Below, one piece after another: positions 25,584 to 64,000 of a DNA stretch of 64,000 bases. The stretch's first letter is position 1, and each line of letters begins with the position of its first letter. This DNA comes from Halichondria panicea (Eukaryota; Porifera; Demospongiae; Suberitida; Halichondriidae), in contig NC_087385.1 in NCBI RefSeq assembly GCF_963675165.1, positions 2,108,501 through 2,172,500 on the forward strand, in the 5' to 3' direction. The notes beneath the pieces were generated by a model, which made no database searches, was not told the origin of the DNA, and was given only the letters and a program-made list of their open reading frames with translations. Made by a program: the position numbers and the translations under genes.

Positions 25584-28500
25584 TCAAGGTTTCAGGTTTT
25601 CTGCAAAAATCAGATTCGATAATTATTGTATGTGCATGAAAACTTAGATATATACCTTTGTGCTCTTTTGAGTCTTGACTTTGAGTACCTGTCAGTACAA
25701 TTACAAATAATCAATGACTCAAATCTACATTTTGCTCACCTTCAATGCTGCTGCCAAAGACAGGGTTTGGTACCATAACACCACCTACCGCTGGTGATCC
25801 TGCCACATCATAGGTTGTCTTCTTTTGACGCAGATTGTACCGTGATACAAACAGTAGCATTAATGTTATCAGAAACAATATTAGCAAGAAAGCACCAATA
25901 GCAATAGCAACCACAGAAGCAATCACTGCTGTAGTGCATGATATCCCAAGAACCGAATTGCACGAATTTTTAGTAGCATCGATTGTGGAATTAGGTCTTG
26001 AACTACTGGTTAGTCTGCAGTCAACACCACTGAAACCATCTGGACATATGCAATGTGTTATAGAGCCGATTCCTTCAACACAAGTGCCATCATTTTGGCA
26101 TCGATAAGTAGGTGCTTTATCACAAAAATTATTCGTCCATTTGGCACCGATCCCCACTGTATCCATCAGCACATGTGCAAAAATATTGGATGCCAATTTC
26201 TTCAACGCATGTACCCCCATTGAAGCAGAAATCTGGCTCACAAAAATCAAGATCTATCTCACAAACATTACCAATAAATCCATCCATGCAGTCGCAGCTA
26301 GTCTCAGTTCCAAAGCCCTCAATACAGCTCCCGTTGTTCGTACAGTTAACAGCCAAGTCTGTACCACAAAAGTTATCATCATTTTCACAATGATCTCCAC
26401 TAAAACTAAAGGAGCAGTTACAAAAGGTTGTTAGTCCAAATCCTTCGATGCATATCCCATTATTAAAGCAGAAGGTGGCTTCGCAGAAATTTAAATCGGT
26501 TTCACATCGGCTACCTAAAAAACCAGCAAGGCAGGAACAGCTAAACATTGGGCCGAATTCCTCTACACAGGTTCCATTGTTCTCACAACTTTTACTGGTG
26601 CAGGCAAAGAAAGATGAATCGTCTTGATCGCAAACATTCCCAGAGAAACCATTTGGACAAATGCAACTGATTCTTGATCCTTCTCCCTCGATACAAGTGC
26701 CTTCATTTGCACAAGTGATTGGCTCACAGAAATCAAGATCAATCTCACAAGCATCACCAGTGAATCCATCCATGCAGTCGCAGCTAGTCTCAGTTCCAAA
26801 GCCCTCAATACAGCTCCCGTTGTTCGTACAGTTAACAGCCAAGTCTGTACCACAAAAGTTGTCATCATTTTCACAATGATCTCCACTAAAACCAAAGGAG
26901 CAGTTACAAAAGGTTGTTAGTCCAAATCCTTCGATGCATATCCCATCATTAAAGCAGAAGGTGGCTTCACAGAAATTTAAATCAGTTTCACATCGGCTCC
27001 CCAAAAAACCAGCAAGGCAAGAACAGCTAAACATTGGGCCGAACTCCTCTACACAGGTTCCATTATTCTCACAGCTAATACCAGTACAGGCAAAGAAAGC
27101 TGTGTCGTCCTGGTCGCAAACGTTCCCAGAATAACCATCCAAACAAATGCAATTGATTCTTGATCCTTCTCCCTCGATACAAGTGCCTTCATTTGCACAA
27201 GTGATTGGCTGACAGTAATCAAGATTGATGTCACATCTTGGACCATTGAAGCCCTCACTACACTCACACGTAATAGGCTCACCATTGGTTTCAGAACAGT
27301 TTCCATTAAAAGTGCAGCTATTCTCAAGACAAAGTTCTGTTTCACACTGATTTCCACGATAGTTGATAGTACAGTTACAGGAAATATTGGTACCAATACC
27401 TTCAACACATGCTCCACCATTGTGACAAGAGTCCTGGTCACAAAATGGGAGATCCAGCTCACAATTTTGGCCGGAAAATCCATCAACACATTCACAAGTT
27501 GTCATTGTTCCTACACCTTCTACACAAACACCATTGTTCATACAGGTTGAATCAGTACAAAACCCGAGATCAGCTTGACAAGCATCTCCTGTGAAACCAA
27601 TAGCACACATACAAGAGAAAGCTCCATTATCCAGGCCAGCATCGATACAAGTACCACCATTCATACAAGGTATACCATTACATGGGAACAAAGGTATACC
27701 ACAGTTCAGACCAGTGTAGTCTGGGGTACAATCACAAGTGTAGGCTCCATTAAGTAGGTTGTTACAGGTTGCATTACTTAAGCAAGGGGCCTCATCACAT
27801 TCATTGATATCAACAGCACATGTATATCCTGTGAAACCTGTCAAACAAGTGCAAGAAAATGTTATGTTTCCATCGATACACGCACTACTACCAAAGTCAC
27901 TGCAGGGACCAAACGGAGCTGGACCAAATGAGCAATAATCTATATCGTTCTCGCAAAGGTCACCAGACCAGCCTTGGTAACAATCACATGTGAAGCTGTT
28001 GACATCGTCTATACACACTCCATTTTGACAGGGACTAGCGACACATTCCTTAATTTCAGTTTCACAAAATTCTCCGATGAATCCATCGATACAATCACAA
28101 GAGAAAATACCAAATCCATCGATACACGTGCCATTGTTACAGACTCCTTGGTTTAAGGCACATTGATTTATTTCAATCTCACAATTCTCACCAGTAAAGT
28201 CAATGGTGCAGTTACACATGTAGTTTGTAGTGCCAATGTTCTCACAGGTGGCATTGTTAAGGCAAAGGCTAAGAGCACATGGGTTGAATAATGTCTCACA
28301 AAATTGACCTGTGTATGCTGGATGACAGTTACATGTGAAATTGAGTTCTCCACTTATGTTTAGTGCTCTGCAAATTCCTTCATTGAAGCAGGTTACATCT
28401 TGACAGGGATCTGTTGGAATTGTATAAAGTGTACATGGAATTGTTTACATACATACCTGGCGTCCCAGTGATTGTAACAAACAAAGAAGTATCAATATCC

Positions 28501-29848
28501 GTGGATACATCCATACTGCCTTCTAGACTTCCAAATACCACTGCATTCAGATTTATACTGAAAATGGCCAAATTGTCACTGAACAGTTGAACAGGAATTG
28601 TATCACGAAGAAAGATCTGTTCTTGAATTACAATAAAATTGTTTTGTCTGTCTAAATTTGTAAGTGATGAACCTTGATAATTCTTTTCTCTAGAACCACT
28701 GTCATATCTAAATATATTCTGAATTGTTTCGGTTTGTAACATTGTCAAAAATATACCCAAAATGCTATCAAAAGCTGTTTCATTCACTATCACTGTGTAA
28801 TTCAGTACTCCTCTACCAACTACAACATCAGCCTCATCGAGAGTCAAATAATAGGCTGTGGCATTAGTTATCAGTGTAGATGATGCTGGCCCTGTAATGA
28901 AACAATACTAATGAAAAATGTATTATTATCTTTATTTTATATCTCACATTGTTGGCAAGTTGCTGTTGTATGATCTCCATAGGATCCAAAGGGGCACACG
29001 TCCGTGCAGTGAGCTGTCAATAAGTATTCCGGTGGTTCACAGGCTGTTTAGCAGTGAACAGTGGTTTATGTAAGCAATTATATAATTATCACTTACGATG
29101 TTCATTTATTTCAGTAGTTTTCAAATCAGCCCAAAAGATTTGCATTGACTGTACAACTGTGTATCTAATACCAAGGTTGATAATTACTGTTAACACACAC
29201 TTTCAATAACGTTTGTTTTGTCTTACACAAAGTATACTGGACCTGAGCCTTTTGGAGGAGCTGTCCATTCAAATGTAACGTTCATTTTACTGCTCCCATT
29301 CACATGCGTAACTGCACTGCCTAGGGGGTACTGTGAAGGGGGTGATACATGTAATCAATAATCAATTTGTTGTTATAACTATACCCGAGCTTGATCACAG
29401 TTTTGAAAACCATACTTATTGGTGTTTGAGGATTGAAAAATTCCAGTAACATTGTCAGGAAACCCAACCTTTCTTGCCTGAATTTGAAAGCCTTTGAAAC
29501 TTGAATTGGAATTGTTCGCTTGTAGTTTTACTGTGTGTATGTTGTGAATGCATTTTATGATCATCACATGTATCATATTGTATGTACTTTTCTTTACAAA
29601 ATGCTATATACATATACGTATGTATTACCTGTGTAAGTAACTCCAGGAACATATTGATACAGACCGCTTGGAGCAAGAAATTTGTCGATAGTAAGCTCAA
29701 ATGAGTTTGTTTCTACTGGTCGTGATGAAGCTCCATCATGGTTTGGCTGTAAGGTAGAACAGGCCTCAGGTGGAGCTCCTGATGAATAAGCATCACTTTG
29801 TTGCAGTAGTGTAATAATTAGACTGAGTATAATAATGAGTCGATACAT
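25584..29848 (-). pseudogene. Reeler-EGF-TM receptor, copy 1, with a one-base frameshift before the TM
   Basis: Exons: 29848-29629 (signal peptide MYRLIIILSL and start of Reeler), 29530-29385, 29330-29227, 29164-29097 (rest of Reeler: FKGFQIQARK, AVTHVNGSSK), 29043-28948 (Cys linker), 28891-28457 (unknown domain), 28410-25740 (EGF array, TM, tail), 25688-25656, and probably 25600-25584. The large exon holds 20 EGF repeats. Next to about 26132 an extra T, compared with all other copies, shifts the frame after repeat 19 and gives a stop at 26129-26131. Beyond it, repeat 20, a TM helix (VVAIAIGAFLLILFLITLML) and the tail (TYDVAGSPAVGG, NPVF) are open in the other frame. As written, the product would be secreted. 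A sequencing error is possible because only one base is involved. The array includes two 486-bp four-EGF cassettes (about 26261-27233). Exon 8 and 9 choices are tentative. Confidence 0.8.
26261..27233 (-). repeat. Two 486-bp four-EGF cassettes in EGF copy 1
   Basis: Within the large exon, the run of four EGF repeats beginning LDxC, FFAC, LNFC and DNFC occurs twice with near-identical DNA at a spacing of 486 bases. This is a coding tandem repeat. Confidence 0.75.
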
Positions 29849-30396: not shown

Positions 30397-33301
30397 CTAA
30401 TAAGTAATGTAAGGTTCTTCTTTCTCTGTGTACGAGTCAAAATTTCTGCATATCAATCATCTACAAAAAAGAGGCAGTCTTGTAATGAGCTCGATTTTAC
30501 GTATGAATACTTACCTTTTTAATTGTTAGTTTTGAGTGCCTATACTTATCAGTACTCATTGACTCTATTTCATTTCTTGAACTCACCTCATTACTCACAT
30601 AGATAGGGTTCGATATCATAATACCTCCTACCACTGGTGGTCCTGCCACATTATAGGATCTCTTCTTTTGACGCAGTTTGTACCACATTACTAATAGTAG
30701 CATTAATGTTGCCAGAAACAATACTAGCAAGAAAGCACCAATAGCTATAGCAACCACACCACCAATCGTAGCTTTGGTACATGATATTCCAAAAACCAAA
30801 TTGCACAAATCTTGAGTGACATCAATTGTTGAATTTAGTCCTGAACCACTAGTTAGTCTACAGTCAACACCACTGAAACCATCTGGACATACGCAATGTG
30901 TTATAGAGCCAATTCCTTCAACACAAGTACCATCATTTGGACAAAAGTTTTGATCACAAAACGGGAGATCTAGCAATTTTGTCCGGAAAATCCATCAACA
31001 CATTCACAAGTTGTCATTTTTCCCATACCTTCTACACAAATACCACTGTTCATACAAGTAGAATCAGTACAAAACTCGAGGTCAGTCAGACAAGCATCTC
31101 ATGTGAAACCAGTAGCACATTCACAAGAGAAAGCTCCACTTCCAAGGCCAGCATCGATACAAGTACCACCATTCATACAAGGTATACCATTACATGGGAA
31201 CAAAGGTATACCACAGTTCAGACCTGTGTAGTCTGGGGTACAATCACAAGTGTAGGTTCCATAAAGTAGGTTGTTACAGGTTGCGTTATTCAAGCAAGGG
31301 GCCTCATCACATTCATTGATATCAACAGCACACGTATATTCTGTGAAACCTGTCAAACAAGTGCAGGAAAATGTATTGTTTTCCTCTACACACACACTAC
31401 TACCAAAGTCACTGCAGGGACCAAATGGAGCAGGACCAAATGAGCAATAATCTATATCGTTCTCGCAAAGGTCACCAGACCAGCCTGGGTAACAATCGCA
31501 TGTGAAGCTGTTGATGTCATCTATACACACTCCATTCTAGAAGACAGCTGGGACTAGCGATCTCTACAATCACAAGAGAAAATACCAAATCCATCAATAC
31601 ACGTGCCATTGTTACAGACTCCTTGGTTTAAGGCACATTGATCTATTTCAATCTCACAATTCTCACCAGTGAAGTCGATCGTGCAGTTGCACGTGTAGTT
31701 TGTAGTGCCAATGTTCTCACACGAGGAATCATTAAGGCAACGGTTTAGAGCACATGGGTCGAATAATGTCTCACAGAATTGACCTGTGTATGCCAGATGA
31801 CAGTCACATGTGAAATTGAGTTCTCCACTTGTGTTTAGTGCTCTGCAAATTCCTCCATTGAAGCAGTTGATATCTTGACATGGGCCTGTGTTGGAATAGT
31901 GTATAAAGTGTACATAGATGTTCACATACATACCTGGCGTCCCAGTGATTGTAACAAACAAAGAAGTATCAATATCCGTGGGTACCTCCATACTGTCTGC
32001 TAGACTCCCAAATACCACTGCATTCAGATTTAGACTGAAAATGGCCAAATTGTCACTGAACAGTTGAACAGGAATTGTATCACGAAGAAAGATCTGTTCT
32101 TGAATTACAATGAAATTGTTTTGTCTGTCTAAACTTGCAAGTGATGAACCCTGATAATTCTTTTCTCTAGAACCACTGTCATATCTAAATATATTCTGAA
32201 TTGTTTCGGTTTGCGACATTGTCAAAAATATACCCAAAATGCTATCAAAAGCTGTTTCATTCACTATCACTGTGTAATTCAATACTCCTCTATCAACTAC
32301 AACATCAGCCTCATCGAGAGTCAAATAATAGGCTGTGGCATTAGTTACCAGTGTAGATGATGCTGGCCCTGTAATGAAACAATACTAATGAAAAATGTAT
32401 TATTATCTTTATTTTATATCTCACATTGTTGGCAAGTTGCTGTTGTATGATCTCCATAGGAACCAAAGGGACACATGTCCGTGCAGTGAACTGTCAATAA
32501 GTATTCCGGTGGTTCACAGGCTAAAGTTAGCGGTGAACAGTGGCTTATGTAAGCAATTATATATCACTTACGATGTTCATTTATTTCAGTAGTTTTCAAA
32601 TCAGCCCAAAAGATTTGCATTGACTGTACCACTGTGTATCTAATGCCAAGGTTGATAATACACATTTTCAAGAAAGTTTGTTTGTCTTACACAAAGTATA
32701 CTGGACCTGAGCCTTTTGGGGGAGCTGTCCATTCAAATGTAACGTTCGTTTTACTGCTCCCATTCACATGAGTAACTGCACTGCCTAGGGGGTACTGTGA
32801 AGGGGGTGATACATGTAATCAATAATCAATTTGTTGTTATAACTATACCTGAGCTTGATCACAGTTTTGAAAACCATACTCGTTGGTGTTTGAGGATTGA
32901 AAAATTCCAGTAACATTGTCAGGAAACCTGACCTTTCTTGCCTGAATTTGAAAGCCTTTGAAACTTAAATTGGAATTGTTGTTTGCTTGTAGTTTTACTG
33001 TGCGTATGTTGTATGCATTTTATGATCATCATGTGTATCATATTGTGTACTTTTATTTACAAAATGCTACGTATATATTACCTGTGTAAGTAACTCCAGG
33101 CACATATTGATACACACCGCTTGGAGCAAGAAATTGTTCAATAGTAAACTCAAATGAGTTTGTTTCTACTGGTCGTGATGAAGCTCCATCATGGTTTGGC
33201 TGTAAGGTAGAACAGGCTTCAGGTGGAGCTCCTGATGAATAAGCATCACCTTCTTGCAGTAGTGTAGTAATTAGACTGAGTATAATAATGAGTCAATACA
33301 T
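30397..33301 (-). pseudogene. Reeler-EGF-TM receptor, copy 2, multiply disabled
   Basis: Exon positions mirror copy 1: 33301-33082, 32997-32849, 32794-32691, 32639-32572, 32520-32425, 32368-31934, 31885-30597, 30539-30515, and relic tail exon 30445-30397. All splice sites are recognisable. There are several lesions: codon 3 of the signal peptide is TGA instead of CGA (33293-33295); about 80 bases are lost near 31555 within EGF 4, with frameshift; a GGA to TGA stop lies at about 31099; and a 4-base deletion occurs near 30975. Exon 8 also reads CAA AAC TAA, ending the tail early. About eight EGF repeats remain, then TM and an NPIY-bearing tail. A partial duplicate of exon 1 with an intact start lies upstream at 33427-33551. 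Confidence 0.88.
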
Positions 33302-33426
33302 TCTTGAGCTAGTGATGTGCTGTAGATCTATTGAGCTACAAAGCAATGAGTTCTCAGGCAAGGAGTTGGAACCACCCCAATAACACTTATGATCGTGAAT
33401 ATTTATAAAAATGGGTGGTGTGCAAT

Positions 33427-33551
33427 AATGAAGCTCCATCATGGTTTGGCTGTAAGGTAGAACAGGCCTCAGGTGGAGCTCCTGATGAATAAGCATCATC
33501 TTCTTGCAGTAGTGTAGTAATTAGACTGAGTATAATAATGAGTCGATACAT
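33427..33551 (-). pseudogene. Duplicated piece of the Reeler signal-peptide exon
   Basis: Reads MYRLIIILSLITTLLQEDDA and on to ACSTLQPNHDGAS with an intact ATG (33549-33551), then runs into non-homologous sequence with no donor matching the real exon 1. It duplicates the start of exon 1 of copy 2, together with about 125 bases of upstream sequence (compare 33302-33426 with 33552-33680). The copy beside the gene has a stop at codon 3, while this one has a start but no donor. Confidence 0.8.
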
Positions 33552-34754: not shown

Positions 34755-37601
34755 TTAGTTTTGAGTGCCTATATTAATACTCATTTATTTCTTGAACTCA
34801 CCTTCAACATTACTGTCAAAGACAGGGTTCGATTTTATAACACCTCCTACCACTGGTGGTCCTGCCACATTATAGGATCTCTTCTTTTGACGCAGTTTGT
34901 ACCGCATTACTAATAGTAGCATTAATGTTGACAGAAACAATATTAGAAAAAAAGCACCAATAGCTATAGCAACCACACCACCAATCGTAGCTTTGGTACA
35001 TGGTATTCCAAAAACCAAATTGCACAAATCTTGAGTGACATCAATTGTTGAATTTAGTCTTGAACCACTGGTTAGTCTACAATCAACACCACTGAAACCA
35101 TCTATACATACGCAATGTGTTAAAGAGCCAATTCCTTCAACACAAGTACCATCATTGCGACAAGAGTTTTTATTACAAAATGGGAGATCTAGCTCGCAAT
35201 TTTGTCCAGAAAATCCGTCAACACATTCACAAGTTGTCATTGTTCCCACACCTTCTACACAAATACCACTGTTCATACAAGTTGAATTAGTACAAAACCC
35301 GAGGTCAGTCTTACAAGCGTCTCCTGTGAAACCAATAGCACACATACAAGAGAAAGCTCCATTTCCAAGGCCAGCATCGATACATGTTCCACCATTTATA
35401 CAAGGTCTACCATTACATGGGAACAGAGGTATACCACAGTTAAGACCAGTGTAGTCTGGAGTACAATCACAAGTGTACGCTCCATTAAGTAGGTTGTTAC
35501 AGGTTGCATTACTTAAGCAAGGGGCCTCATCACATTCATTGATATCAACAGCACACGTATATCCTGTGAAACCTGTCAAACAAGTGCAGAAAAATGTATT
35601 GTTCTCCTCTATACACTCACTACTACCAAAGTCACTGCAGGGACCAAATGGAGCAGGACCAAATGAGCAATAATCTATATCGTTCTCGCAAAGGTCACCA
35701 GACCAGCCTGGGTAACAATCGCATGTGAAGCTGTTGATGTCATCTATACACACTCCATTTTGACAGCTAGGACTAGCACTCTCACATTCATTAATATCCG
35801 TTTCACAAAATGCACCAATAAATCCATCGATACAATCACAAGAGAAAATACCAAATCCATCAATACACGTGCCATTGTTACACACTCCTTGGTTTAAGGC
35901 ACACTGATCTATTTCAATCTCACAATTCTCACCAGTAAAGTCAATAGTGCAGTCACACGTGTAGTTTGTAGTGCCAATGTTCTCACAGGTGGCATTGTTA
36001 AGGCAAAGGCTTAGAGCACATGGGTCAAATAATGTCTCACAGAATTGACCTGTGTATGCCAGATGACAGTCACATGTGAAATTGAGTTCTCCACCTGTGT
36101 TTAGTGCTCTGCAAATTCCTTCATTTAGGCAGGTTACATCTTGACAGGGATCTGTGTTGGACAAATGTATAAAGTATACATAGTATTTTTGACGTACATA
36201 CCTGGCGTCCCAGTGATTGTAACAAACAAGGAAGTATCAATATCCGTGGGTACCTCCATAGTACTGTCTGCTAGACTCCCAAATACCACTGCATTCAGAT
36301 TTAGACTGAAAATAGCCAAATTGTCACTGAACAATTGAACAGGAATTGTATCACGAAGAAAGATCTGTTCTTGAATTACAATGAAATTGTTTTGTCTGTC
36401 TAAACTTGCAAGTGATGAACCCTGATAATCCTTTTCTCTAGAACCGCTGTCATATCTAAATATATTCTGAATTGTTTCGGTTTGTGACATTGTCAAAAAT
36501 ATACCCGAAATGCTATCAAAAGCTGTTTCATTCACTATCACTGTGTAATTCAATACTCCTCTACCAACTACAACATCAGCCTCATCGAGAGTCAAATAAT
36601 AGGCTGTGGCATTAGTTACCAGTGTAGATGATGCTGGCCCTGTAATTAAAAAATACTAATGAAAAAATGCATAATTATTAGTGAATGTTATATTTATTTT
36701 GTATCTCACATTGTTGGCAAGTTGCTGTTGTATGATCTCCATAGGAACCAAAGGGGCACACGTCCGTGCAGTGAGCTGTCAATAAGTATTTCGGTGGTTC
36801 ACAGGCTGTTTAGCAGTGAACAGTGGTTTATGTAAGCAATAATTATATAACACTTACGATGTTCATTTATTTCAGGAGTTCTCAAATCAGCCCAAAAGAT
36901 GTGCATTGACTGTACCACTGTGTATCTAATACCAAGGTTGAGAATTATTGTTAACACACACTTTTCAAGAAAGTTTGTTGTCTTACACAAAGTATACTGG
37001 ACCTGAGCCTTTTAGGGGAGCTGTCCATTCAAATGTAACGTTCATTTTATTGCTCCCATTCACATGGGTAACTGCACTGCCTAGGGGGTACTGCGAAGGG
37101 GGTGGTGCAAACAATTATTCATTGTTTAGGTGCCGTAAGAAACTATAATAACTCATACCTGAGCTTGATCACAACTTTGAAAACCATACTCGTTGATGTT
37201 TGAAGAATTAAAAATGCCGGTAACATTGTCAGGAAACCTGATCTTTCTTGCTTGAATTAGAAAGCCCTTGAAACTCACCGAATTGGAATTGTTGGCTTGT
37301 AGTATCACTGTGTGTGTGTTGTGAAATTATTTTGCATAGCTACATTTAGTGTTCCTATAATTATAATAATTATGTTAATACCTGTGTAAGTGACCCCAGG
37401 CACATATTGAAGTACACCGCTTGGAGTAAGAAATTCTTCGATATCTAGTTCATATGGGTTTGTTTCCGCTGGTTGTGATGAAGCTCCATCGTGGTTTGGC
37501 TGTAAGCTAGAACAAGCTTCAGGTGGAGCTCCTGATGAATAGCCATCACTTTGTTGCATTAGTGCAGCAATTAGACTGAGTATAATAATGAGTTGATTCA
37601 T
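34755..37601 (-). CDS. Reeler-EGF-TM receptor, copy 3 (9 EGF repeats, short tail)
   Basis: Exons 37601-37382, 37307-37159, 37090-36987, 36925-36858, 36805-36710, 36639-36202, 36151-34802 and 34768-34755 (stop TAA); phases are consistent and the product is about 812 residues. Residues 1-22 are a signal peptide (MNQLIIILSLIAALMQQSDG). The Reeler domain follows to about 180 (SGAPPEACSSLQPNH, FKGFLIQARK, AVTHVNGS, FEWTAP, FWADL), then a Cys linker, the unknown domain (about 212-358), nine EGF repeats, a TM helix (ATIGGVVAIAIGAFFLILFL) and a basic stop-transfer KLRQKK. The tail has SYNVAG and NPVF and ends EGTQN because exon 8 has TAA where copies 4 and 6 have CAA. The following exon (34675-34621) is still open in the old phase and would read NFDSYTKMEKEEPYITY. 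Likely a plasma-membrane receptor or adhesion protein; no ligand can be named. Confidence 0.87.
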
Positions 37602-37819: not shown

Positions 37820-38345
37820 CACTTTGCATTGACTGTACCACTGTGTATCTAATAGCAAGTTGATTTTGACACACACTTGCAATAATTAAAATTTGTTGTT
37901 TGTCTTACACAAAGTATACTGGACCTGAGCCTTCCGAGGGAGTAATCATTCAACAGTAATGTTCATCTTACTGCTCCCGGCATTCACATGCTTAACTCCA
38001 CTGCGAGGGGCACTGCAGGGTGGTGTAATTAAATTTTGTGTTTGTCTTACCAGAGCTTGATCACAGTTTTGAAGATCATCGTTGTTGTTTGAGGAATGAA
38101 AAATTCCGGTAACACTATTGTCAGGAAACCTGATATTTCTTGCCTGAAACTTAATTGGCTTGTAGTATGACTGTGTGCGTGGTGTGAAATAATTGCACAT
38201 TAATTTTAGTTACATAGCTAGATCTACATGTACTATTCTTACAATAATACCTGGAGCAAGAAATTTAGCTCAGAATTAAGGATTTGTTTCCGCTGCTGGT
38301 GTGATGGAGTTGGCAGTGAGGTAGAGCTCCCGACGAATAGGTTAT
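37820..38345 (-). pseudogene. Decayed extra Reeler module upstream of EGF copy 3
   Basis: Contains degenerate matches, in transcription order from the right, to Reeler exon 1 (about 38345-38250, GGAGCTCCCGACGAATAG against GGAGCTCCTGATGAATAG), exon 2 (about 38175-38050), exon 3 (about 38020-37916) and the start of exon 4 (about 37858-37823). Frames are broken by indels. Its own copy of the upstream block is at 38472. Equivalent relics sit upstream of copies 4 and 6. Confidence 0.75.
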
Positions 38346-39244: not shown

Positions 39245-39339
39245 AATTGAGCTCTATATTTCAGAACATTTACCTTTGTATTCCCTTGATTCTAAGTGGA
39301 TGTCATGACGTACAAATCAAACTCAATTTATAAATTTTA

Positions 39340-39757
39340 TTGTGTTCACTTTCAACATTGCTGCGAAAAAGGGTTTGATAATTATCATAAAATCACCTAC
39401 CATTGGAGATCCTGCCACATTATAGGTTGTTTTTCTATTGATGCAGTTTGTACCACAATATTAGAAACAAGTAAGAAAGCACCAATAGCTATAGAACCAC
39501 ACTAGCAATCGTATCTTTAGTACATGATAATTCAATATACCAAACTGCACAATGGTGGAATTTAGTCCTGAACCACTGAGTCTGCAGTACGTCAACACCA
39601 CTGAAACCATCTGGACATACACAATGTGTTATAGAGCCAATTCCTTCGACACAAGTGCCAGCATTTTGGCATTGATAAGCGGGTTCTTTATCACAGAAAT
39701 TATTATCACTTTGGCACTGATCCCCACTGTAACCATCAGCACATGCAGTGGCGTGTA
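39340..39757 (-). pseudogene. Fragment of an EGF-TM gene 3' end
   Basis: Reads two EGF repeats (CADGYSGDQCQSDNNFCDKE, and EGIGSITHCVCPDGFSGVD) then a frameshifted remnant of the TM exon (CTKDTIASVV), with further homology to the tail coding region down to about 39340 (CACCTACCATTGGAGATCCT). Several indels relative to copies 1-7. It shows that another member of the array once stood here. Confidence 0.8.
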
Positions 39758-39902
39758 TAACCGGCCAGGGACTTAGGTGGCTTGAGCACCTCTCTGGCCT
39801 CCCAGACAACCATGGAACTAATCTATCATCAGCACTGGTCTAGCTACTAACTGTGCAGCTCTATTGACTTTTATAATGCAAAGTACATTGTCAACGCATA
39901 GT

Positions 39903-48260: not shown

Positions 48261-48870
48261 CTTGCATTGACTGTACCACTGTGTATCTAATAGCAAGTCG
48301 ATATTATTGTTAACACACACTTGCAATAGCGTTTATTGTTTGTCTTACACAAAGTATACTGGACCTGAGCCTTCTGAGGGAGCTGTTCATTCAACAGTAA
48401 TGTTCATCTTACTGCTCCGTTTCATATGCTTATAACTCACTGCAATGGGTAACTCCGCTACGAGGGGTACTGCAGGGTTGAATATAATTTTTGTTTGACT
48501 GTTTTCAGTAATATTACTTACCAGAGGATCACGGTTTTGAAAATCATCTCGTTGGTGTTTGAGGAATGAAAAATAATTCTGGTAACTTGTCAGGAAACCC
48601 GTTGCCTGAATTAGAAACTCACTTAATTGGAAATGTTGGCTTGTAGTATGACTGTGCGTTGTGTGAAAAAGAGCACATTTAGTTGCATAGATTTACATGC
48701 TCTTCTTCAATAACTATGCTAATACCTGGAGCAAGAAAATGTTCACACAGTGTAGTTAGCTCAGAATTACGGATTTGTTTCCGCTGCATGGTGGTGATGG
48801 AGCTCCATGGTTTGGCTGTAAGTTAAAATAGGTTTGAGGTGGAGCTCCCGACGAATAGGTTGTTTTTGCA
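48261..48870 (-). pseudogene. Decayed extra Reeler module upstream of EGF copy 4
   Basis: Degenerate matches to Reeler exon 4 (about 48295-48262), exon 3 (about 48475-48354), exon 2 (about 48655-48520) and exon 1 (about 48870-48725), with indels in every exon. Aligns with 37820-38345 and 59620-60170. Own upstream block at 48975. Confidence 0.75.
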
Positions 48871-50330: not shown

Positions 50331-50961
50331 GAGAAATCGAACACGGCTCGTTTTCACCATTGGTTTTCTCTGCTACTGCAGGGATTGTGTACAGCTGTGA
50401 TGTGCAGTGAACCAAAACAATGTTTTCCCTTGAGGAATAGCTGTATGCTGTGAACTGTCCGTTATTGTTTGCAAACAAGAATCTGGAACTGCACACATTT
50501 TGGAAATCTTAAAAACTGAACCCAGTAGATTATGTGTGCTTTACTGTTATAATTGTGAGTCATCGAAGTTAAATTTAAATTATACGTTCTAGTTAATTAA
50601 CAATCACTCGAGGTGAAGTCTCTAGAACTACACTGTGTATAATTATTATACTTGGCAGTCGGGTTTCATTTGTCACAAGCTGCAAGTCTCGTTAATCAAC
50701 CTTTTAAATGAATAATAAGTCTTGGAAAGTCATACTAATTAATTTAAGTGTGCTATAATTATGAGTCATTGAAGTTAATTTCGAGTGCTACATGTTCATA
50801 GTTGCTTGTGTATGAGTCAAGCTTTCTGCTCATCAATTATCTGCACAAAAGAATGATAACTGCAGCTCAATACTCAGTATTAAACATGAACACTTACACC
50901 TTTGCGCTCTCCTCATTCTGAGTTCATATCAGTACACAATAAACTTATTTCCCGTGCTCAC

Positions 50962-51714
50962 CTTCAATATTGTTGCGAAAAACTGGGTTCGATATCATGA
51001 CACCTCCTACCACTGGTGATCCTGCCACATCATAGGTTCTCTTCTTTTGACGCAGTTTGCACCACAATACTAATAGTAGCATTAATGTTGTCAGAAACAA
51101 TATTAGAAAAAAAGCACCAATAGCTATAGCAACCACACCACCAATCGTAGCTTTGGTACATGATATTCCAAAAACCAAATTGCACAAATCTTGAATAGAA
51201 TTTAGTCCTGAACCACTGGTTAGTCTGCAGTCAACACCACTGAAACCATCTAGACATACGCAATGTGTTGTATAACCAATTCCTTCAACACAAGTGCCAT
51301 CATTTTGGCATCGATAAGTGGGTGCTTTATCACAGAAATTATCGTCCGTTTGGCACCGATCCCCACTGTAACCATCAGCACATGTGCAAAAATATTGGAT
51401 GCCAATTTCTTCAATGCATGTGCCACCATTAAAGCAGGAATCTGGATCACAGAAATCAAGATCTATCTCACAAACATCACCAGTGAATCCATCCATGCAG
51501 TCGCAGCTAGTCTCAGTTCCAAAGACCTCAATACAGCTTCCATTGTTCATACAGTTAACACTCAATTCTGTACCACAAAAGTTGTCATCATTATCACAAT
51601 GATCTCCACTAAAACCAAAGGAGCAGTTACAAAAGGTTGCTAGTCCAAATCCTTCGATGCACATCCCATTATTAAAGCAGGAGGTAGCTTCGCAAAATTT
51701 AAATCAGTTTCACA
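50962..51714 (-). pseudogene. Reeler-EGF-TM receptor, copy 5: 3' fragment only
   Basis: Part of the large exon: the end of one EGF repeat, three full repeats (DNFCGTELSVNC, LDFCDPDSC, DNFCDKAPTYRC types), TM helix and tail (TYDVAGSPVVGG, NPVF). The upstream boundary is abrupt: at CACA (51711-51714) homology to copy 7 (62198-62960) stops and homology to 42655 onward starts. A missing A in the AAAATTT run near 51698 also shifts the last codons before the join. All 5' exons are absent. Confidence 0.85.
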
Positions 51715-52349
51715 CCTACCTATATCGCTGCTCCACCATGGTCCAGAGCTACAGAGACGGAGCATACAAACAGCGTGTGAGAGAAATTGAACATGGCTCG
51801 TTTTCACCGTTGGTTTTCTCTGCTGCTGGAGGGATGGGTCCGACAGCAGGGATTGTGTACAGCTGTGATGTGCAGTGAACCAAAACAATGTTTTCCCTTG
51901 TGGAATAGCTATATGCTGCGAGCTGTCTGTTATTGTTTGCAAACAAGAATCTGGAACTGCACATATTTTGGGAATCTCAAAACTGAACCCAGTAGATTAT
52001 GTGTGCTTTACTGTTATAATTGTGAGTCATCGAAGTTAAATTTAAATTGTACGTTCTAGTTAATAATTATTATTAACAATCACTCGAGGTGAAGTCTCTA
52101 CAACTACACTGTGTATATATACTTCTTTTGACGCAGTTTGCACCACGATACGTTATCAGAAACAATATTACAAAACAACTCGTACTTCAAAATAATTGCT
52201 ATCCCAATTTGCATGTGTGTATCACCTGTAACAAAATGGGTGATTACAATGACAGAATGTGTACTATGTTTTATACACACCAAATTGTAAATATAGATTA
52301 ACATAAAGGTTCGATGGAGTGTGATAGAAATAAGAACTGCATTGGTAAG
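51715..52349. repeat. Duplicate of the 42.7-43.4 kb segment
   Basis: Same order as 42655-43360: retroelement tail, upstream block (51870), 19-mer (52081-52099), and a scrap of TM exon (about 52115-52173). It lacks about 60 bases present near 42715-42775. It leads into exon 9 of EGF copy 6. Confidence 0.7.
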
Positions 52350-55300: not shown

Positions 55301-58300
55301 ATTCATTATTCAATACACGCAAACATAATTACTGCTGACTTGGCAGAAATAAAGTGCTGACATGACTAAAAAAGGATCCCTAGGATCCCTTTATAATTAT
55401 ATTCATCATTTATCACATGATTTATTATTACCAAGTATGACGCGCGTCCAACCTCCTCTGGCCCTGGAGTACTATGGCATAGTACTCCAGAGCTTACAAA
55501 TGAAATCCCTGTGCATAGTCTATGCTTTGTGAAGGTCCTCTGGGATGTGTAATAATTTAAAAGCTCTCCACACAGATGCTGCAAACACAAGGTGCGCTCT
55601 TATTAGAATTTCGAGATATCTTGCGATTGTTACCGCTGGCGGCGAGGTTTTTGACCGCGGCGGTTCATGAAGGCGGCCACTCATTTACCGCTCGCAGATA
55701 AGTGAGGCGGTCCCTCTTTACCGCTCGCGGTATTTTTCGGGTGGGTAAAAGAGTCAACATTCATTTACTGCTCGCGGGTAGAGAAGGCGGCGACCCTTTA
55801 CCGCGCACAGCATAGGAGGCCGGAAAGCGGAGGCGGGTGACCCCTATCGGCCACCATAGATATCCATTTGGGACTTATGCCCCACCATCCAACCCTATAA
55901 CTCATTTGGTCCCTTTTATAGGTTACTACTTTTATAACTACTAGTGGGAAGAAAACCTAAAAATTTACTGGAATTCAGCAAAACTAATGAATACACTAAA
56001 TTCCTTCAAACACATGTCTTTTATTACGATTTATATGACCAGTCAGACAAGTTTAACGTCATTGGGCAACAAGTTAGTTATTGCAGGCGCCCTCGTGCAA
56101 CATGCCATATATTGCACTGGATGACATAATTCCCGAGGGCCGCAGGCCTCGAGGGCATTATATTGCTCCAGTGCAATATATGGCATGTTGCTCTCTGGCT
56201 GGGCAATAACTAATACTTACCTTTTTGATATCATTTTGTCTTGGTTTTGAGCGCCTATAATTATTAGTACAAACTATAATTAAACTTATTGACTCCATTT
56301 TATTTCTTGAACTCACCTTCAACTTTACTCTCATAGATAGGGTTCGATATCATAATACCTCCTACCACTGGTAGTCCTGCCACATTACAAATTCTCTTCT
56401 TTTGATGAAGTTTGCACCACAATACTAATAGTAGCATTAATGTTGCCAGAAACAATATTAGCAAGAAAGCACCAATAGCTATAGCAACCACACCACCAAT
56501 CGTAGCTTTGGTACATGATATTCCAAAAACCGAATTGCACAAATCTAGCGTATCAGTTTCACATCGGCTCCCCAAAAAACCAGCAAGGCACAAACAGCTA
56601 AACATTACGCCGAATTCCTCTACACAGGTTCCATTGTTCTCACAGCTATTACTGGTGCAGGCAAAGAAAGATGAATCATCTTGATCACAAACGTTCCCAG
56701 AATAACCATCCAAACAAATGCAATTGATTCTTGATCCTTCTCCCTCGATACAAGTGCCTTCATTTGCACAAGTGGTTGGCTGACAGTAATCAAGATCAAT
56801 CTCACATCTCAGACCATTGAAGCCCTCACTACACTCACATGTAATAGGCTCACCATTGGTTTCAGAACAGTTTCCATTAAAGCTGCAGCTATTCTCAAAA
56901 CAAATTTCTGTTTCACACTGATTTCCACGATAGTTGATAGTACAGTTACAGGAAATATGGATACCAATGCCTTCAATACATGTTCCACCATTGTGACAAG
57001 AGTCCTGGTCACAAAGTGGGAGATCCAGCTCACAATTTTGACCGGAAAATCCTTCAAAACATTCACAAGTTGTCATTGTTCCCACACCTTCTACACAAAC
57101 ACCACTGTTCATACAAGTTGAATCAGTACAAAACCCGAGGTCTGCTTGACAAGCATTTCCTGTGAAACCAATAGCACACATACAAGAGAAAGTTCCATTT
57201 CCAAGGCCAGCATCAATACAAGTACCATTATTCATACAAGGTACATCGTTACATGGGAACAGAGGTATACCACAGTTAAGACCAGTGTAGTCTGGGGTAC
57301 AATCACAAGTGTAGGCTCCATTAAGTAGGTTGTTACAGGTTGCATTATTCAAGCAAGGGAACTCATCACATTCATTGATATCAACAGCACACGTATATCC
57401 TGTGAAACCTGTCAAACAAGTGCAAGAAAATGTTATGTTTCCATCGATACACGCACTGCTACCAAAGTCACTGCAGGGACCAAACGGAGCTGGACCAAAT
57501 GAGCAATAATCTATATCGTTCTCGCAAAAGTCACCAAACCAGCCTGGGTAACAATCACATGTGAAGCTGTTGATGTCATCTATACACACTCCATTTTGAC
57601 AGCTGGGACTAGCGACACATTCATTAATTTCAGTTTCACAAAATTCTCCAATAAATCCATCGATACAATCACAAGAGAAAATACCAAATCCATCGATACA
57701 CGTGCCATTGTTACAGACTCCTTGGATTAAGGAACATTGATCTATTTCAATCTCACAATTCTCACCAGTAAAGTCAATAGTGCAGTTGCACGTGTAGTTT
57801 GTAGTGCCAATGTTCTCACAGGTTGCATTGTTAAGGCAAAGGCTAAGAACACATGGGTCAAATAATGTCTCACAGAATTGACCTGTGTATGCCGGATGAC
57901 AGTTACATGTGAAATTGAATTCTCCACTTATGTTTAGTGCTCTGCAAATTCCTTCATTGAAGCAGGTTACATCTTGACATGGACCTGTATTGGACTAGTG
58001 TATAAAGTGTACATGGAATGTTTACATACTTACCTGACGTCCTAGTGATTGTAACAAACAAAGAAGTATCAATATCCGTGGATACATCAATACTGTCTGC
58101 TAGACTCCCAAATACCACTGCATTCAGATTTAGACTGAAAATGGCCAAATTGTCACTGAACAGTTGAACAGGAATCGTATCACGAAGAAAGATCTGTTCT
58201 TGAATTACAATGAAATTGTTTTGTCTGTCTAAACTTGCAAGTGATGAAACCGGATAATTCTTTTCTCTAGAACCACTGTCATATCTAAATATATTCTGAA

Positions 58301-59403
58301 TTGTTTCGGTTTGTAACATTGTCAAAAATATACCCACTATGTTATCAAAAGCTGATTCATTCACTATCACTGTGTAATTCAATACTCCTCTACCAACTAC
58401 AACATCAGCCTCATCGAGAGTCAAATAATAGGCTGTGGCATTAGTTACCAGTAGAGATGATGCTGGCCCTGTAATTAAAAAATACTAATGAAAAAATGCA
58501 TAATTATTATATTTATTTTGTATTTCACATTGTTGGCAAGTTGCTGTTGTATGATCTCCATAGGAACCAAAGGGGCACACGTCCGTGCAGTGAGCTGTCA
58601 ATAAGTATTCCGGTGGTTCACAGGCTGAAGTTTAGCAGTGAACAGATGTAAACAATTATAATTATATCACTTACGATGTTCATTTATTTCAGGAGTTCTC
58701 AAATCAGCCCAAAAGATTTGCATTGACTGTACCACTGTGTATCTAATACCAAGGTTGATAATTATTGTTAATACACACTTTCAAGAAGTTTGTTTGTCTT
58801 ACACAAAGTATACTGGACCCGAGCCTTTTGGGGGAGCTGTCCATTTAAACGTAACATTCATCTTACTGCTCCCATTCACATGCGTAACTGCACTGCCGAG
58901 GGGGTACTGCGAAGGGGGTGGTGCAAACAATTATTCATTGTTTAGGTGGCCGTAAGAAACTATAATAATTCATACCTGAGCTTGATCGCAACTCTGAAAA
59001 CCAAACTCGTTGGTGTTTGAAGAATTAAAAATGCCAGTAACATTGTCAGGAAACCTGATCTTTCTTGCTTGAATTAGAAAGCCTTTGAAACTCACCACAT
59101 TTGACTTGTTGGCTTGTAGTATCACTGTGTGTGTGTGTTGTGAAAATATTTTGCCTAGCTACATTTGTCTTCCTATATACTAATACCTGTGTAAGTGACT
59201 CCAGGTACATATTGATACACACTGCTTGGAGCAAGAAGTTCTTCGATATCTAGTTCATATGGGTTTGTTTCCACTGGTTGTGATGTAGTTCCATGGTCTG
59301 GCTGTAAGGTAGAACATGCTTCAGGTGGAGCTCCTGATGAATAGCCATCACTTTGTTGCATTAGTGTAGCAATTAGACTGAGTATAATAATGAGTCGATA
59401 CAT
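52350..59403 (-). CDS. Reeler-EGF-TM receptor, copy 6 (12 EGF repeats), with a transposon nest in its last intron
   Basis: Exons 59403-59187, 59124-58976, 58906-58803, 58742-58675, 58624-58529, 58468-58034, 57984-56317, 56254-56221 and 52410-52350 (TAG); phases agree, about 943 residues. Signal peptide MYRLIIILSLIATLMQQSDG, Reeler, Cys linker, unknown domain, 12 EGF repeats, TM helix, tail with NPIY, ending EEPYITYTY as in copy 4. The EGF array is cut short compared with copy 4: after the FFAC-type repeat the sequence jumps from CETD to LDLCNSVFGISC, an in-frame deletion of eleven repeats. Intron 8 is about 3.8 kb because element A and its passengers (52480-56211) inserted next to the donor, whose GTAAGTATT is intact. 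Whether exon 9 is still spliced in is unproven; if not, translation stops soon after exon 8 (AAAAGGTAA). Confidence 0.83.
52576..53323 (+). mobile_element. Element C (748 bp), nested in element A
   Basis: Terminal inverted repeats CAGAGATTGAAGAGAGAGGG and its near reverse complement (CCCCTTCTCTTCAATCTCTG), flanked by a 7-bp direct repeat ATTATAT (52569-52575, 53324-53330). The ends resemble element B (CATAGATAGAGTAGAAG), and both give 7-bp duplications, so they probably belong to one superfamily. An internal palindrome at 52723-52755 (CATAGATTGAAGAG, then its complement) looks like a scrap of related ends. No long frame. Confidence 0.8.
53641..53785. mobile_element. Small inverted-repeat unit within element D
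   Basis: The arms CACCTAGCCAAGATTAAGTG to GATTGGCTC and GAGCCAATCC to CTTGGGTAGGT pair imperfectly around a CTCGAGGCGGAGCCGAG centre. Could be a nested MITE or part of the ends of D. Confidence 0.5.
53903..54537 (+). pseudogene. DUF3504-type (tyrosine-recombinase-derived) protein, truncated and frameshifted
   Basis: Open from 53903 on the plus strand. The pattern IPVKTNACTEWGVKLCADW, then MLVPDFVYWLEKFVLEI and KYPPNAKTLYAIVCCFKRYF matches the DUF3504 region of ZMYM/QRICH1/KIAA1958-like proteins, which derive from Crypton tyrosine recombinases. Further on, LIKERTGHHSL is the recombinase-type GH-S motif. At about 54316 the frame shifts by one base: the matching continuation (EALHEYKRTGPDQQ) is in the next frame, ending TGA at 54535-54537. 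The middle of the domain is missing (a jump after PRFGNCATTLYRQD). Likely a relic of the enzyme that once mobilised D or a relative. Confidence 0.65.
54690..55520. mobile_element. Inverted-repeat unit inside element D carrying a small ORF
   Basis: Left end GGGATTTCATCTGTAAGCCC with GAGGAGGTTGGACGCGCGTC (about 54700-54745) is mirrored at the right by GACGCGCGTCCAACCTCCTC and GCTTACAAATGAAATCCCT (about 55440-55513). The right arm has an extra small palindrome, CTGGAGTACTATGGCATAGT. This makes a fourth nesting level: this unit in D, D in A, A in the EGF gene. Confidence 0.65.
54838..55176 (+). CDS. Small hypothetical protein with two Cys pairs, in a mobile unit
   Basis: 112 residues from the ATG at 54838 (an earlier in-frame Met exists at 54766). 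It reads MAVAANVGEPDLCQSCGEDL at the start, has CxxC near residue 13 and a second CxxC (SVCTGCKNS) near residue 83, which could bind one zinc. Ends ELNTFDNN. No family recognised. It lies between the inverted repeats at 54700 and 55513 and so is probably cargo of that unit. Intact frame, no neighbours of cellular type. Confidence 0.5.
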   Translation: MAVAANVGEPDLCQSCGEDLDDHTLLFIHTRGEVIGYTVPSFPVLEVKFTHVKYAKDDSMTSYDGFIRETSELVKVNTMISVCTGCKNSFFIPMDEFMKSNVELELNTFDNN

Positions 59404-59619: not shown

Positions 59620-60170
59620 CTTTGCATTGACTGTACCACTGTGTGTGTATCTAATTAGCAAATTGATATTATTTAACACACACTTGCAATAGCGTTTGTT
59701 GTTTGTCTTACAAATATACTGGATTTGAGCCTTCTGAGGGAGCTGTTCATTCAACAGTAACGTTCATGTTACTGCTCCCATTCACATGTTTATAACTCAC
59801 TGCGATGGGTAACTCCACTACGAGGGGTACTGCAGGTGAACTGTTTTCACTTACCAGAGGATCACGGTTTTGAAAATCATCTCGTTGGTGTTTGAGGAAC
59901 GAAAAATATTTCCGGTAACTTGTCAGGAAACTCGTTGCCTGAATTAGAAACTCACTTAATTGGAAATGTTGGCTTGTAGTATGACTGTGTGCTTGGTGTG
60001 AAAAAGTAGTTGCATAGATTTACATGCTCTTCTTCGCTAATACCTTGAGCAAGAAAATGTTCACACAGTGTAGTTAGCGGATTTGTTTCCGCTGCATGGT
60101 GGTGGTGGAGCTCCATGGTTTGGCTCTAAGCTAACAGGTTTGATGTGGAGCTCCCGACGAATAGGTTGTT
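59620..60170 (-). pseudogene. Decayed extra Reeler module upstream of EGF copy 6
   Basis: Third example of the same relic: degenerate exon 4 (about 59655-59622), exon 3 (about 59835-59715), exon 2 (about 59985-59855) and exon 1 (about 60170-60045). Shares indels with 48261-48870, so both descend from one already-broken module. Upstream block variant at 60282. Confidence 0.75.
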
Positions 60171-60959: not shown

Positions 60960-61560
60960 CCTTCAACATTTCTAGTATCATGCAAAACAAGCCCCGATCT
61001 AGCACCATGCACTATCAGTTTGATACTTGATGTATACAAACCTACAAAGAAGTACAAGCAAGCAAGACTGAGGAACAATGCAAAAAAAATCTGCTGGCAG
61101 ATGGAGGCCAGAACAGCAAGTGAACTGAATGAACAACTACTAGGAAAAGCATTGGAATATGCTCGGAAAAGGTATATACACTCAAGCTAGGTAATAGCCC
61201 TGCCAATCACAGAGCATAGTTTCATGCTTTACAAGGGAGCCTTTAGAGTTGTCTCCGACATGGTTGGCAACCTCAGAACCTACATTCTCACTGTGTCTGT
61301 GGACAGCACTTCACAGTAGAGCATGCACTCAGCTGCTCTATGGGAGGATTTCTAACAACAGAAATACGCAACATCACAGCAAATCTCATGAGCGACGTAT
61401 GTCCAGACGTGGGTATGGAATTAACTCTACAGCCTGTGACAGATGAGCAATTCCAACTCAGGACAACCAACCGTGAGGACGACGCTCTCCTTGATGTTGT
61501 TGCCCAGAGCCAGAGCTACAGAAGGAATGAGATGGAGTATACAAACAGTGTGTGAGAGAA
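60960..61560 (+). pseudogene. Reverse-transcriptase C-terminal fragment
   Basis: Near-duplicate of 49740-50330: NAKKICWQMEARTASELNEQ (about 61077-61136), a Cys/His-type tail in broken frames, and TNREDDALLDVVAQSQS. It includes the uninterrupted target of element B copy 2 (CTGTGACAGATGAG, about 61434-61447). Confidence 0.65.
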
Positions 61561-62197
61561 ATCGAACACGGCTTGTTTTCACTATTAATTGGTTTTCTCT
61601 GCTGCTGGAGGGATGGGTCCGACAGCAGGGATTGTGTACAGCTGTGATGTGCAGTGAACCAAAACAATGTTTTCCCTTGTGGAATAGCTGTATGCTGAAC
61701 TGTCCGTTATTGTTTGCAAACAAGAATCTGGAACTGCACATATTTTGGGAATCTTAAAAACTGAACCCAGTACATTATGTGTGCTTTACTGTTATAATTG
61801 TGAGTCATCGAAGTTAAATTTAAATTTAAATTGTACGTTCTAGAGTCTATCACTCGAGGTGAAGTCTCTATATAACTACACTGTGTATATTATACTTGGC
61901 AGTCGGGTTTCCTTTGTCACAAGCTGCAAGTTTCGTTAATCAACCTTTTAAATGAAGAATAAGTCATGGAAAGTCATATTAATTAATTTAAGTGTGCTAT
62001 AATTATGAGTCATCGAAGTTATTTTGAGTGCTACACGTTCATAGTTGCTTGTGTACGAGTCAAGTTTTCTGTTCATCAATTATCTACACAAAAGAATGAT
62101 AACAGTAGCTCAATACTCAGTATTAAGCATGAACACTTACACCTTTGCGCTCTCTTCATTCTGAGTTCATGTCAGTACACTTATTTCCTGTGCTCAC
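61561..62197. other. Non-coding repeat-unit sequence upstream of the next unit
   Basis: Upstream block (61649), the 19-mer (61851-61869), and 3' flank of EGF copy 7, with a likely small tail exon near 62130-62160 (AAAGAGAGCGC region on the minus strand). Aligns with 50330-50961. Confidence 0.45.
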
Positions 62198-64000
62198 CTT
62201 CATTGTTGCAAAAAACTGGGTTCGATATCATGACACCTCCTACCACTGGTGATCCTGCCACATCATAAGTTCTCTTCTTTTGACGCAGTTTGCACCACAA
62301 TATACTAATAGTAGCATTAATGTTGTCAGAAACAATATTAGAAAAAAAGCACCAATAGCTATAGCAACCACACCACCAATCGTAGCTTTGGTACATGATA
62401 TTCCAAAAACCAAATTGCACAAATCTTGAGTAACATCAATAGAATTTAGTCCTGAACCACTGGTTAGTCTGCAGTCAACACCACTGAAACCATCTGGACA
62501 TACGCAATGTGTTGTATAACCAATTCCTTCGACACAAGTGCCATCATTTTGGCATCGATAAGTGGGTGCTTTATCACAAAAATTATCGTCCGTTTGGCAC
62601 CGATCCCCATTGTAACCATCAGCACATGAGTAAGAAAATTGGATGCCAATTTCTTCAATGCATGTACCACCATTAAAGCAGGAATCTGGCTCACAGAAAT
62701 CAATATCAATCTCACAAACATCACCAGTGAATCCATCCATGCAGTCGCAGCTAGTCTCAGTTCCAAAGCCCTCAATACAGCTTCCATTGTTCGTACAGTT
62801 AACACTCAATTCTGTACCACAAAAGTTGTCATCATTATCACAATGATTTCCACTAAAACCGAAGGAGCAGTTACAAAAGGTTGTTAGTCCAAATCCTTCG
62901 ATGCATATCCCATTATTAAAGCAGGAGGTAGCTTCGCAAAAATTTAAATCAGTTTCACAACGGCCACCCAAAAAACCAGCAAGGCAAGAACAGCTAAACG
63001 TTGGGCCGAATTCCTCTACACAGGTTCCATTGTTCTCACAACTATTACCAGCACAGGCAAAGAAAGCTCTGTCGTCCTGATCGCAAATGTTCCCAGAATA
63101 ACCGTCCGAACAAATGCAACTGATTCTTGATCCTTCTCCCTCGATACAAGTGCCTTTATTTGCACAAGTCTTTGGCTGACAGTAATCAAGGTCAATGTCA
63201 CATCTCAGACAACTGAAGCCCTCACTACACTCACACATAATAGGCTCACCATTGGTTTCAGAACAGTTTCCATTAAAGCTGCAGCTATTCTCAAGACAAA
63301 TTTCTGTTTCACACTGAATTCCACGATAGGTGCCAGCACAGTTACAGGAAATATGGATACCAATACCTTCAACACATGCTCCACCATTGCGACAAGAGTC
63401 CTGGTCACAAAATGGGAGATCTAGCTCACAATTTTGTCCGGAAAATCCGTCAACACATTCACAAGTTGTCATTGTTCCCACACCTTCTACACAAACACCA
63501 CTGTTCACACAAGTTGAATCAGTACAAAACTCGAGGTCAGTCTGACAAGCATCTCCTGTGAAACCAGTAGCACATTCACAAGAGAAAGCTCCACTTCCAA
63601 GGCCAGCATCGATACAAGTACCATTATTCATGCAAGGTACATCGTTACATGGGAACAAAGGTATACCACAGTTAAGACCTGTGTAGTCTGGAGTACAATC
63701 ACAAGTGTAGGCTCCATTAAGTAGGTTGTTACAGGTTGCATTACTTAAGCAAGGGGCCTCATCACATTCATTGATATCAACAGCACACGTATATCCTGTG
63801 AAACCTGTCAAACAAGTACAGGAAAATGTTATGTTTCCATCGATACACGCACTGCTACCAAAGTCACTGCAGGGACCAAATGGAGCAGGACCAAATGAGC
63901 AATAATCTATATCGTTCTCGCAAAGGTAACCAGACCAGCCTGGGTAACAATCACATGTGAAGCTGTTGATGTCATCTATACACACTCCATTTTGACAACT
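62198..64000 (-). CDS. Reeler-EGF-TM receptor, copy 7 (5' part off the window, tail frameshifted)
   Basis: Large-exon sequence open from the window edge to 62240: part of one EGF repeat, then 12 full repeats (DYCSFGPAPFG through DNFCDKAPTYRC), a spacer and the TM helix (ATIGGVVAIAIGAFFLILFL). At about 62301-62304 an extra TA in CACAATATACTAAT, compared with CACAATACTAAT in copy 5, shifts the frame just after the TM. The usual KLRQKKRTYDVAG and NPVF tail is replaced by VYCGANCVKRRELMMW and a stop at 62240-62242. The old tail remains open in the other frame to the donor at 62198. If other copies are a guide, the full protein has 16 EGF repeats. Membrane anchoring would persist but the NPxF tail would be lost. 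Confidence 0.8.

Follow-up and report, generated by a model that had tools for sequence, protein, structure and literature searches.

Engulfment receptors of the Megf10/Draper/CED-1 family join an ectodomain of EMI and EGF domains to a tail with an NPxY motif, and CED-1 binds CED-6 (PMC8092387). A 64,000-nucleotide stretch of the genome of the sponge Halichondria panicea (C9:2108501-2172500, hereafter the window) carries a tandem cluster of genes whose predicted products are laid out like these receptors, with an N-terminal head, an EGF-type array, one transmembrane (TM) helix and, in some copies, a cytoplasmic NPxY. The parts differ. Megf10, Draper and CED-1 have an EMI head and an immunoreceptor tyrosine-based activation motif (ITAM) or YxxL, with NIM repeats in Draper, whereas the cluster proteins would combine a head of Reeler, cysteine-rich and immunoglobulin (Ig)-like parts with PF00008 EGF units and NPx[Y/F] only. 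The reading that we favor, plausible but short of probable, is that the cluster proteins may be uptake receptors that work like Megf10 and Draper without being members of that family.

Reelin, F-spondin and FRRS1 have an N-terminal Reeler domain, as the cluster proteins do, and differ in what follows it: Spondin_N, reelin repeat, TSP1, DOMON and cytochrome b561 domains had no Pfam match in the cluster exons scanned, where the sequences after the Reeler domain gave either an EGF match or nothing. The Reeler structures of F-spondin matched the cluster weakly (best E 0.37). Noduler of insects and the Reeler proteins of crustaceans, which also have an extracellular Reeler domain, bind bacteria; in those described there, the domain covers nearly the whole of a secreted protein that has no EGF or TM region (PMC12113285). 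In the sponge Aplysina aerophoba, the genes that respond to microbial patterns include a Reeler gene (PMC6208332), and a study on Sycon reports one Reeler-containing calcarin (PMC12419799). The words 'Reeler' and 'EGF' are absent from the main text of a proteomics paper on sponge phagocytosis (PMC12345144). Among the publications listed, whose abstracts were partial and whose subscription papers were mostly out of reach, we found no description of a Reeler–EGF–TM architecture, in line with an earlier sequence-only reading of this DNA, which had not recognized the architecture from characterized proteins. What appears to be new is the head, made of Reeler and an unnamed domain; surface receptors with EGF stalks are already known as a kind.

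Structure of the tandem array

The assembly comprises 131 Mb in 39 contigs, and the window lies on the contig labelled C9. The exons of one copy (A) were delimited by eye and then used exon by exon in tblastn searches for other copies. Eight pieces of one tandem family (A–H), all on the minus strand, were found in the window. Exons 1-6 were present in five of them (A at 29.8 kb, B at 33.3, C at 37.6, E at 48.0 and G at 59.4), and the head of H lies just past the window end on the same contig. Tblastn placed TM and tail sequence in A, B, C, E, F, G and H and a degenerate version in D; D and F are tail pieces without heads. Each head has six introns of 45-98 nt, all 30 introns in the five models (A, B, C, E and G) are bounded by GT..AG, and the phases 1,0,2,1,1,1 are common to the five window heads. 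Exon 7 holds the EGF array, the TM helix and the tail together, and the intron between exons 6 and 7 is 46-50 nt long and phase-matched in all five copies. The sequence-only reading had claimed at least seven members or pieces with shared exon positions and phases; the heads, their splice sites and their identical phases bear out such a family, the count being eight pieces with two fragments (D and F) instead of one.

These gene models confirm that the locus carries, in tandem, genes for predicted type I single-pass surface receptors. The predicted protein begins with a signal peptide and a Reeler domain, which a short cysteine-rich linker joins to an unnamed Ig-like domain; the EGF stalk follows, then one TM helix and finally ~40 tail residues. 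Separate Reeler and EGF genes are disfavored by the 46-50 nt phase-matched intron in five copies and by the same join in a relative on contig C12, described below. Chance open reading frames (ORFs) are ruled out by the conserved introns, the full-length spliced Reeler domain and purifying selection.

The spliced Reeler sequences of A, C, E and G, four of the five window heads, were scanned and matched PF02014 over positions 1-131 (E 2e-25 to 2.1e-26), with 90.3-93.4 bits against a gathering score of 21. One Reeler exon alone reached E 4.6e-6 only. A cysteine-rich exon sits between the Reeler and unnamed domains; in copy E this stretch matched nothing in Pfam. More Reeler exons occur elsewhere in the genome, at C17:3928k-4437k (several), C14:4579k, C5:6115k and C1:13927k (weak); by eye, two such loci showed Reeler and no EGF exon within 3 kb.

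Only C, E and G have open frames from ATG to stop, of 813 (358+455), 1374 (358+1016) and 917 (356+561) residues. In copy C, exons 1-3 (36987..37601, -; 37601-37382, 37307-37159 and 37090-36987) encode the predicted signal peptide and most of the Reeler domain (spliced E 1.8e-25), exons 4-5 (36710..36925, -) encode the Reeler end at 36925-36858 and the cysteine-rich linker at 36805-36710, and exon 6 (36202..36639, -) is a phase 1-1 exon for the unnamed domain. Its intact exon 7 (34785..36151, -) holds nine EGF units (1-8 and the terminal one), the TM helix, an NPVF tail and a stop. Copy E has exons 1-6 at 46673..48042 (-; 48042-47826, 47756-47602, 47533-47430, 47368-47301, 47248-47153 and 47107-46673; Reeler E 2e-25) and an intact exon 7 at 43573..46622 (-), open over 3,050 bases, with 23 EGF units, a TM helix, an NPTY tail and a stop. 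For copy G, exons 1-6 lie at 58034..59403 (-; 59403-59187, 59124-58976, 58906-58803, 58742-58675, 58624-58529 and 58468-58034; Reeler E 2.1e-26), and an intact exon 7 at 56300..57984 (-) encodes 12 EGF units without the terminal one, then a TM helix, an NPIY tail and a stop.

PF00008 matched in tandem above its gathering score in exon 7 of the four copies scanned (A, C, E and G). EGF units were counted by their six-cysteine pattern and matched to the 23 units of copy E, giving 20 for A, 9 for C, 23 for E, 12 for G, 4 for F and 0 for D. In their broken frames H gave 13 and B gave 5; counting by eye raised H to 16 EGFs, three of which have lost or added a cysteine, and B to about 8-9 including partial units. 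Units 11-14, 15-18 and 19-22 of copy E are three copies of a four-EGF super-repeat (486 bp), also detected by Tandem Repeats Finder. Unit 23 of E is the terminal one, and copy C consists of units 1-8 followed by 23. Since the order of units is kept between copies, their number appears to change by in-register gain and loss within one exon, as would follow from unequal recombination.

A single TM helix was computed for C, E and G (best 19-residue hydropathy 2.7-3.0), and the other copies align with it. A basic stretch follows, and then about 40 residues that include NPx[Y/F] in seven of the eight tails, with tyrosine in B, E and G and phenylalanine in A, C, F and H. The Reeler N-terminus and the C-terminal EGF array with one TM helix that had been read from the letters thus both hold for the copies scanned, as do the EGF numbers proposed (20, about 8, 9, 23, a fragment, 12 and 16), which agree with the pattern and by-eye counts; the Pfam check proposed there, made on the spliced Reeler sequences and on exon 7, put Reeler and EGF (PF00008) above their gathering scores.

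The exon 6 domain and relatives in the genome

Exon 6 encodes ~145 residues. No Pfam family, cadherin included, matched exon 6 of A and E at E up to 1, or four relatives of the domain from contigs C12 and C5 at E up to 5. The domain was found at nine places in the genome (six copies on C9, one on C12 and two on C5), and a second search added a third copy on C5. Both ends of the exon are in phase 1 in the five window copies and in the C12 gene; at the C5 loci, phase-1 ends were seen by eye at five of six borders, one copy having a phase-1 donor and an unclear acceptor. Alignments of the domain excluded H, whose exon is broken, and D and F, which have no head.

An AlphaFold2 model of exon 6 of copy A, built from nine sequences, is a beta-sandwich (predicted local distance difference test score, pLDDT, 79.2; predicted template modelling score, pTM, 0.74). 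The best Foldseek matches were chains of the pilus chaperone FaeE (E 1.5e-4, TM-score 0.53), and VIA-align ranked a protocadherin-24 EC1-2 chain first (Z 9.6 over 110 aligned residues, 2.6 Å, 14% identity). A second, weaker model, of a C5 copy (pLDDT 66.4, pTM 0.65), had integrin alpha and pilins as its preferred neighbors (best Z 8.4 over 121 aligned residues, 3.6 Å). The modelled domain appears to us to be an Ig-like sandwich that we could assign to no family. Cadherin membership was rejected, the likeness being one of fold without a Pfam cadherin match. A PDB sequence search with the domain profile returned six rows, the best of which (a phage portal protein, E 0.011) we take as chance.

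A divergent relative of the cluster, on contig C12 (C12:857336 onward), has the same exon order and, by eye, the same head layout and intron phases. Its unnamed domain is 43% identical and its first Reeler exon 46% identical to those of the cluster, and its Reeler scored 79.2 bits against PF02014 in a joined sequence that held one extra residue. Because this gene keeps the joined head, the Reeler–unnamed domain–EGF architecture probably predates the cluster. Like the cluster genes it has a Reeler domain, a cysteine-rich exon, the unnamed domain and a giant EGF exon; it differs in that one copy was found and that 36 EGF stretches in the Pfam scan are followed by LamG-like (sub-threshold) and Kazal-like (by eye) stretches. 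A further gene with an EGF array lies just downstream of it (+); the DIDYCSLD..HGPCDD unit of that gene is similar to the family's EGF unit 5.

The C5 loci share the unnamed domain with the cluster at 27-33% identity and differ from it in having Sushi matches and a sub-threshold Calx-beta match, with no Reeler in the 10 kb inspected. A 549-residue frame (-) adjoins one C5 locus and, by eye, resembles the N-terminal domain of the IgGFc-binding protein.

Selection and mosaic history

Ratios of nonsynonymous to synonymous differences (pN/pS) were pooled over A, B, C, E and G, with B included and stop codons skipped; D, F and H were excluded, except that F entered the tail analyses. The ratio was 0.35 in the Reeler domain, 0.27 in EGF1-3, 0.61 in the cysteine-rich stretch, 0.63 in the unnamed domain and 0.86 in the TM helix and tail (six copies). 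Among C, E and G, the Reeler domain had synonymous divergence (dS) of 0.11-0.17 and nonsynonymous-to-synonymous rate ratios (dN/dS) of 0.32-0.38. The unnamed domain of the B-G pair gave dN/dS 1.41, on 14 vs. 3 changes. The Reeler domain and the first EGFs are under purifying constraint, and overall the unnamed domain and the TM and tail region show relaxation, not acceleration. We considered diversifying selection on the head and did not see it; of the pooled ratios, only that of the signal peptide exceeded 1 (1.41), on 60 bases. The family had been described as rapidly evolving, which stands for EGF number, changing as it does by in-frame gain and loss, and does not stand for diversifying selection, given the low ratios of the Reeler domain and EGF1-3.

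Fixed differences between A and B on one side and C, E and G on the other (B included; D, F and H excluded) were found at 56 of the 476 aligned sites that span exon 1 through intron 2, vs. 4 of the 1213 that span exon 3 through the beginning of exon 7. The same step appears in the introns alone (31/113 in introns 1-2 vs. 3/179 in introns 3-6). Divergence thus breaks near the start of exon 3, and exons 1-2 form two diverged classes (A/B and C/E/G) on a homogenized body. We infer that gene conversion or recombination has probably homogenized the body while two forms of exons 1-2 persist.

Proposed role

If the cluster proteins are uptake receptors, the head would bind a ligand, which may be a microbial surface, an apoptotic cell or matrix, and the EGF stalk would set the distance of the head from the membrane. 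The NPx[Y/F] tail would then engage phosphotyrosine-binding (PTB)-domain or clathrin adaptors and bring about uptake of whatever the head has bound. The copies would be rebuilt continually by unequal recombination and gene conversion, with varied stalk lengths and two first halves of the Reeler domain on one shared body. The guess of a microbial ligand draws on the bacterial binding of Noduler and the crustacean Reeler proteins and on the response of the Aplysina aerophoba Reeler gene. Nine PTB/PID exon matches over the cut-off in the genome indicate that readers of an NPx[Y/F] tail exist, and the low pN/pS of the Reeler domain and EGF1-3 is as expected of translated, constrained genes.

Several observations weigh against this proposal. 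Intact copy C has NPVF and not NPxY, and decayed D has neither. The tail is under weak constraint, with a TM and tail ratio of 0.86 and only 13 of its 35 positions invariant across six copies, which makes the shared NP modest evidence. The C12 relative has no clear TM helix or tail in the stretch inspected, and uptake might be a property of the cluster only. Four of the eight pieces (B, D, F and H) are pseudogenes or truncated and A is frameshifted, as in a family losing importance. By eye, no ITAM or YxxL was seen in seven tails. Together with the lack of an EMI match in the Reeler, cysteine-rich and unnamed-domain sequences scanned against Pfam, this last point places the cluster outside the Megf10/Draper/CED-1 family; a genome-wide EMI search gave no match, but its controls gave none either, and it is uninformative.

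A structural role as extracellular-matrix or signaling receptors, with a Notch- or teneurin-like EGF stalk and no connection to microbes or uptake, would account for arrays of 9-23 EGF units, for the strongest constraint falling in EGF1-3 and for the run of the C12 relative into LamG-like and Kazal-like stretches, as in matrix proteins. We nonetheless think it rather unlikely, because the intact copies vary 2.5-fold in stalk length (9, 12 and 23 EGFs), which a dedicated structural or signaling partner would hardly tolerate, and because the short tail has no recognizable signaling domain.

The sequence-only reading had suggested recognition or adhesion as a possible role. In its fuller form, head and stalk would bind family members on neighboring cells, in homotypic or heterotypic adhesion or self-recognition, and stalk length and head class would give individuality. 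A tandem cluster with stalk-length differences and two exon 1-2 classes fits such a scheme, and the best structural neighbors of the modelled unnamed domain include domains of cadherins and integrins, but the arrangement matched is a common one (best Z 9.6 and 8.4) and no Pfam cadherin match was found. Since the Reeler domain also shows no diversifying selection (pN/pS 0.35) and only three copies in the assembly are intact, we regard this role as unlikely. That the family is decaying with little current function, C, E and G being its youngest or luckiest duplicates, is improbable: the broken or truncated state of A, B, D, F and H and the relaxed ratios of the unnamed domain (0.63; B-G pair 1.41) and of the TM and tail region (0.86) fit it, but the Reeler dN/dS of C, E and G and the open exon 7 of copy E argue that constraint has acted since these three diverged.

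The uptake-receptor proposal has a bolder extension, which we consider distinctly doubtful: exon 6 would encode a new extracellular domain family, a phase 1-1 module shuffled between Reeler-EGF receptors and Sushi proteins, and the cluster would be an unrecognized phagocytic receptor class in which recombination swaps two Reeler head classes and resets stalk length. If true, one locus would supply receptors of differing reach and specificity, separating food, symbiont and self. The locus offers three apparently intact genes with exact exon coordinates for testing particle recognition and uptake in this animal, and it draws attention to a domain unrecognized by Pfam. Changing stalk length over a constrained Reeler domain and first EGFs would be a natural experiment on receptor length.

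Broken copies, relics and neighboring sequence

Copy A has exons 1-6 at 28457..29848 (-; 29848-29629, 29530-29385, 29330-29227, 29164-29097, 29043-28948 and 28891-28457; Reeler E 3.9e-26) and exon 7 at 25711..28410 (-) with 20 EGF units. One base more than in copy F before the last EGF shifts the frame, with a stop at 26129, and leaves the last EGF, TM helix and tail in another frame; this may reflect an allele, a slip in the assembly or a secreted form. Copy B (30497..33301, -) has all seven exons and is a pseudogene, with a stop at codon 3 and, relative to C, out-of-frame deletions, an insertion and a TGA in exon 7; tblastn placed a partial exon 1 duplicate upstream of it (33429..33551, -). 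Copy D (39336..39839, -) is a decayed relic of the last EGF, TM and tail in which no NPx[Y/F] was seen. Copy F (50945..51703, -) encodes four EGF units, a TM helix and an NPVF tail, and its head exons were not found. Copy H, whose 3' part of exon 7 lies at 62181..64000 (-), is a pseudogene: exon 2 contains a stop, exon 6 carries a deletion that is out of frame, and the tail is frameshifted.

Decayed second Reeler exons lie upstream of C (exons 2 and 3, 37931..38176, -), of E (exons 1 and 3, 48351..48857, -) and of G (exon 3, 59714..59809, -). The relics upstream of C, E and G share an in-frame stop at the same exon 3 site, suggesting that the duplicated unit probably already included a dead neighbor.

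A dispersed repeat, 87-95% identical between its copies at 42780-43488, 51755-52479 and 61510-61897, is found beside E, F and H and directly borders F at its 5' end. Pieces that by eye resemble class C (GABA-B-like) receptors stand on both sides of the cluster, at 22226-24866 (-) in the window and at 8559-9325 (-) of a flanking sequence with its own numbering; one stretch is 70.8% identical between the two sides. Three of the window pieces had no Pfam match. An ORF at 53903-54391 (+) has a sub-threshold QRICH1-domain match (25.6 bits against a cut-off of 30.8) and is perhaps a remnant of a Crypton-like transposon.

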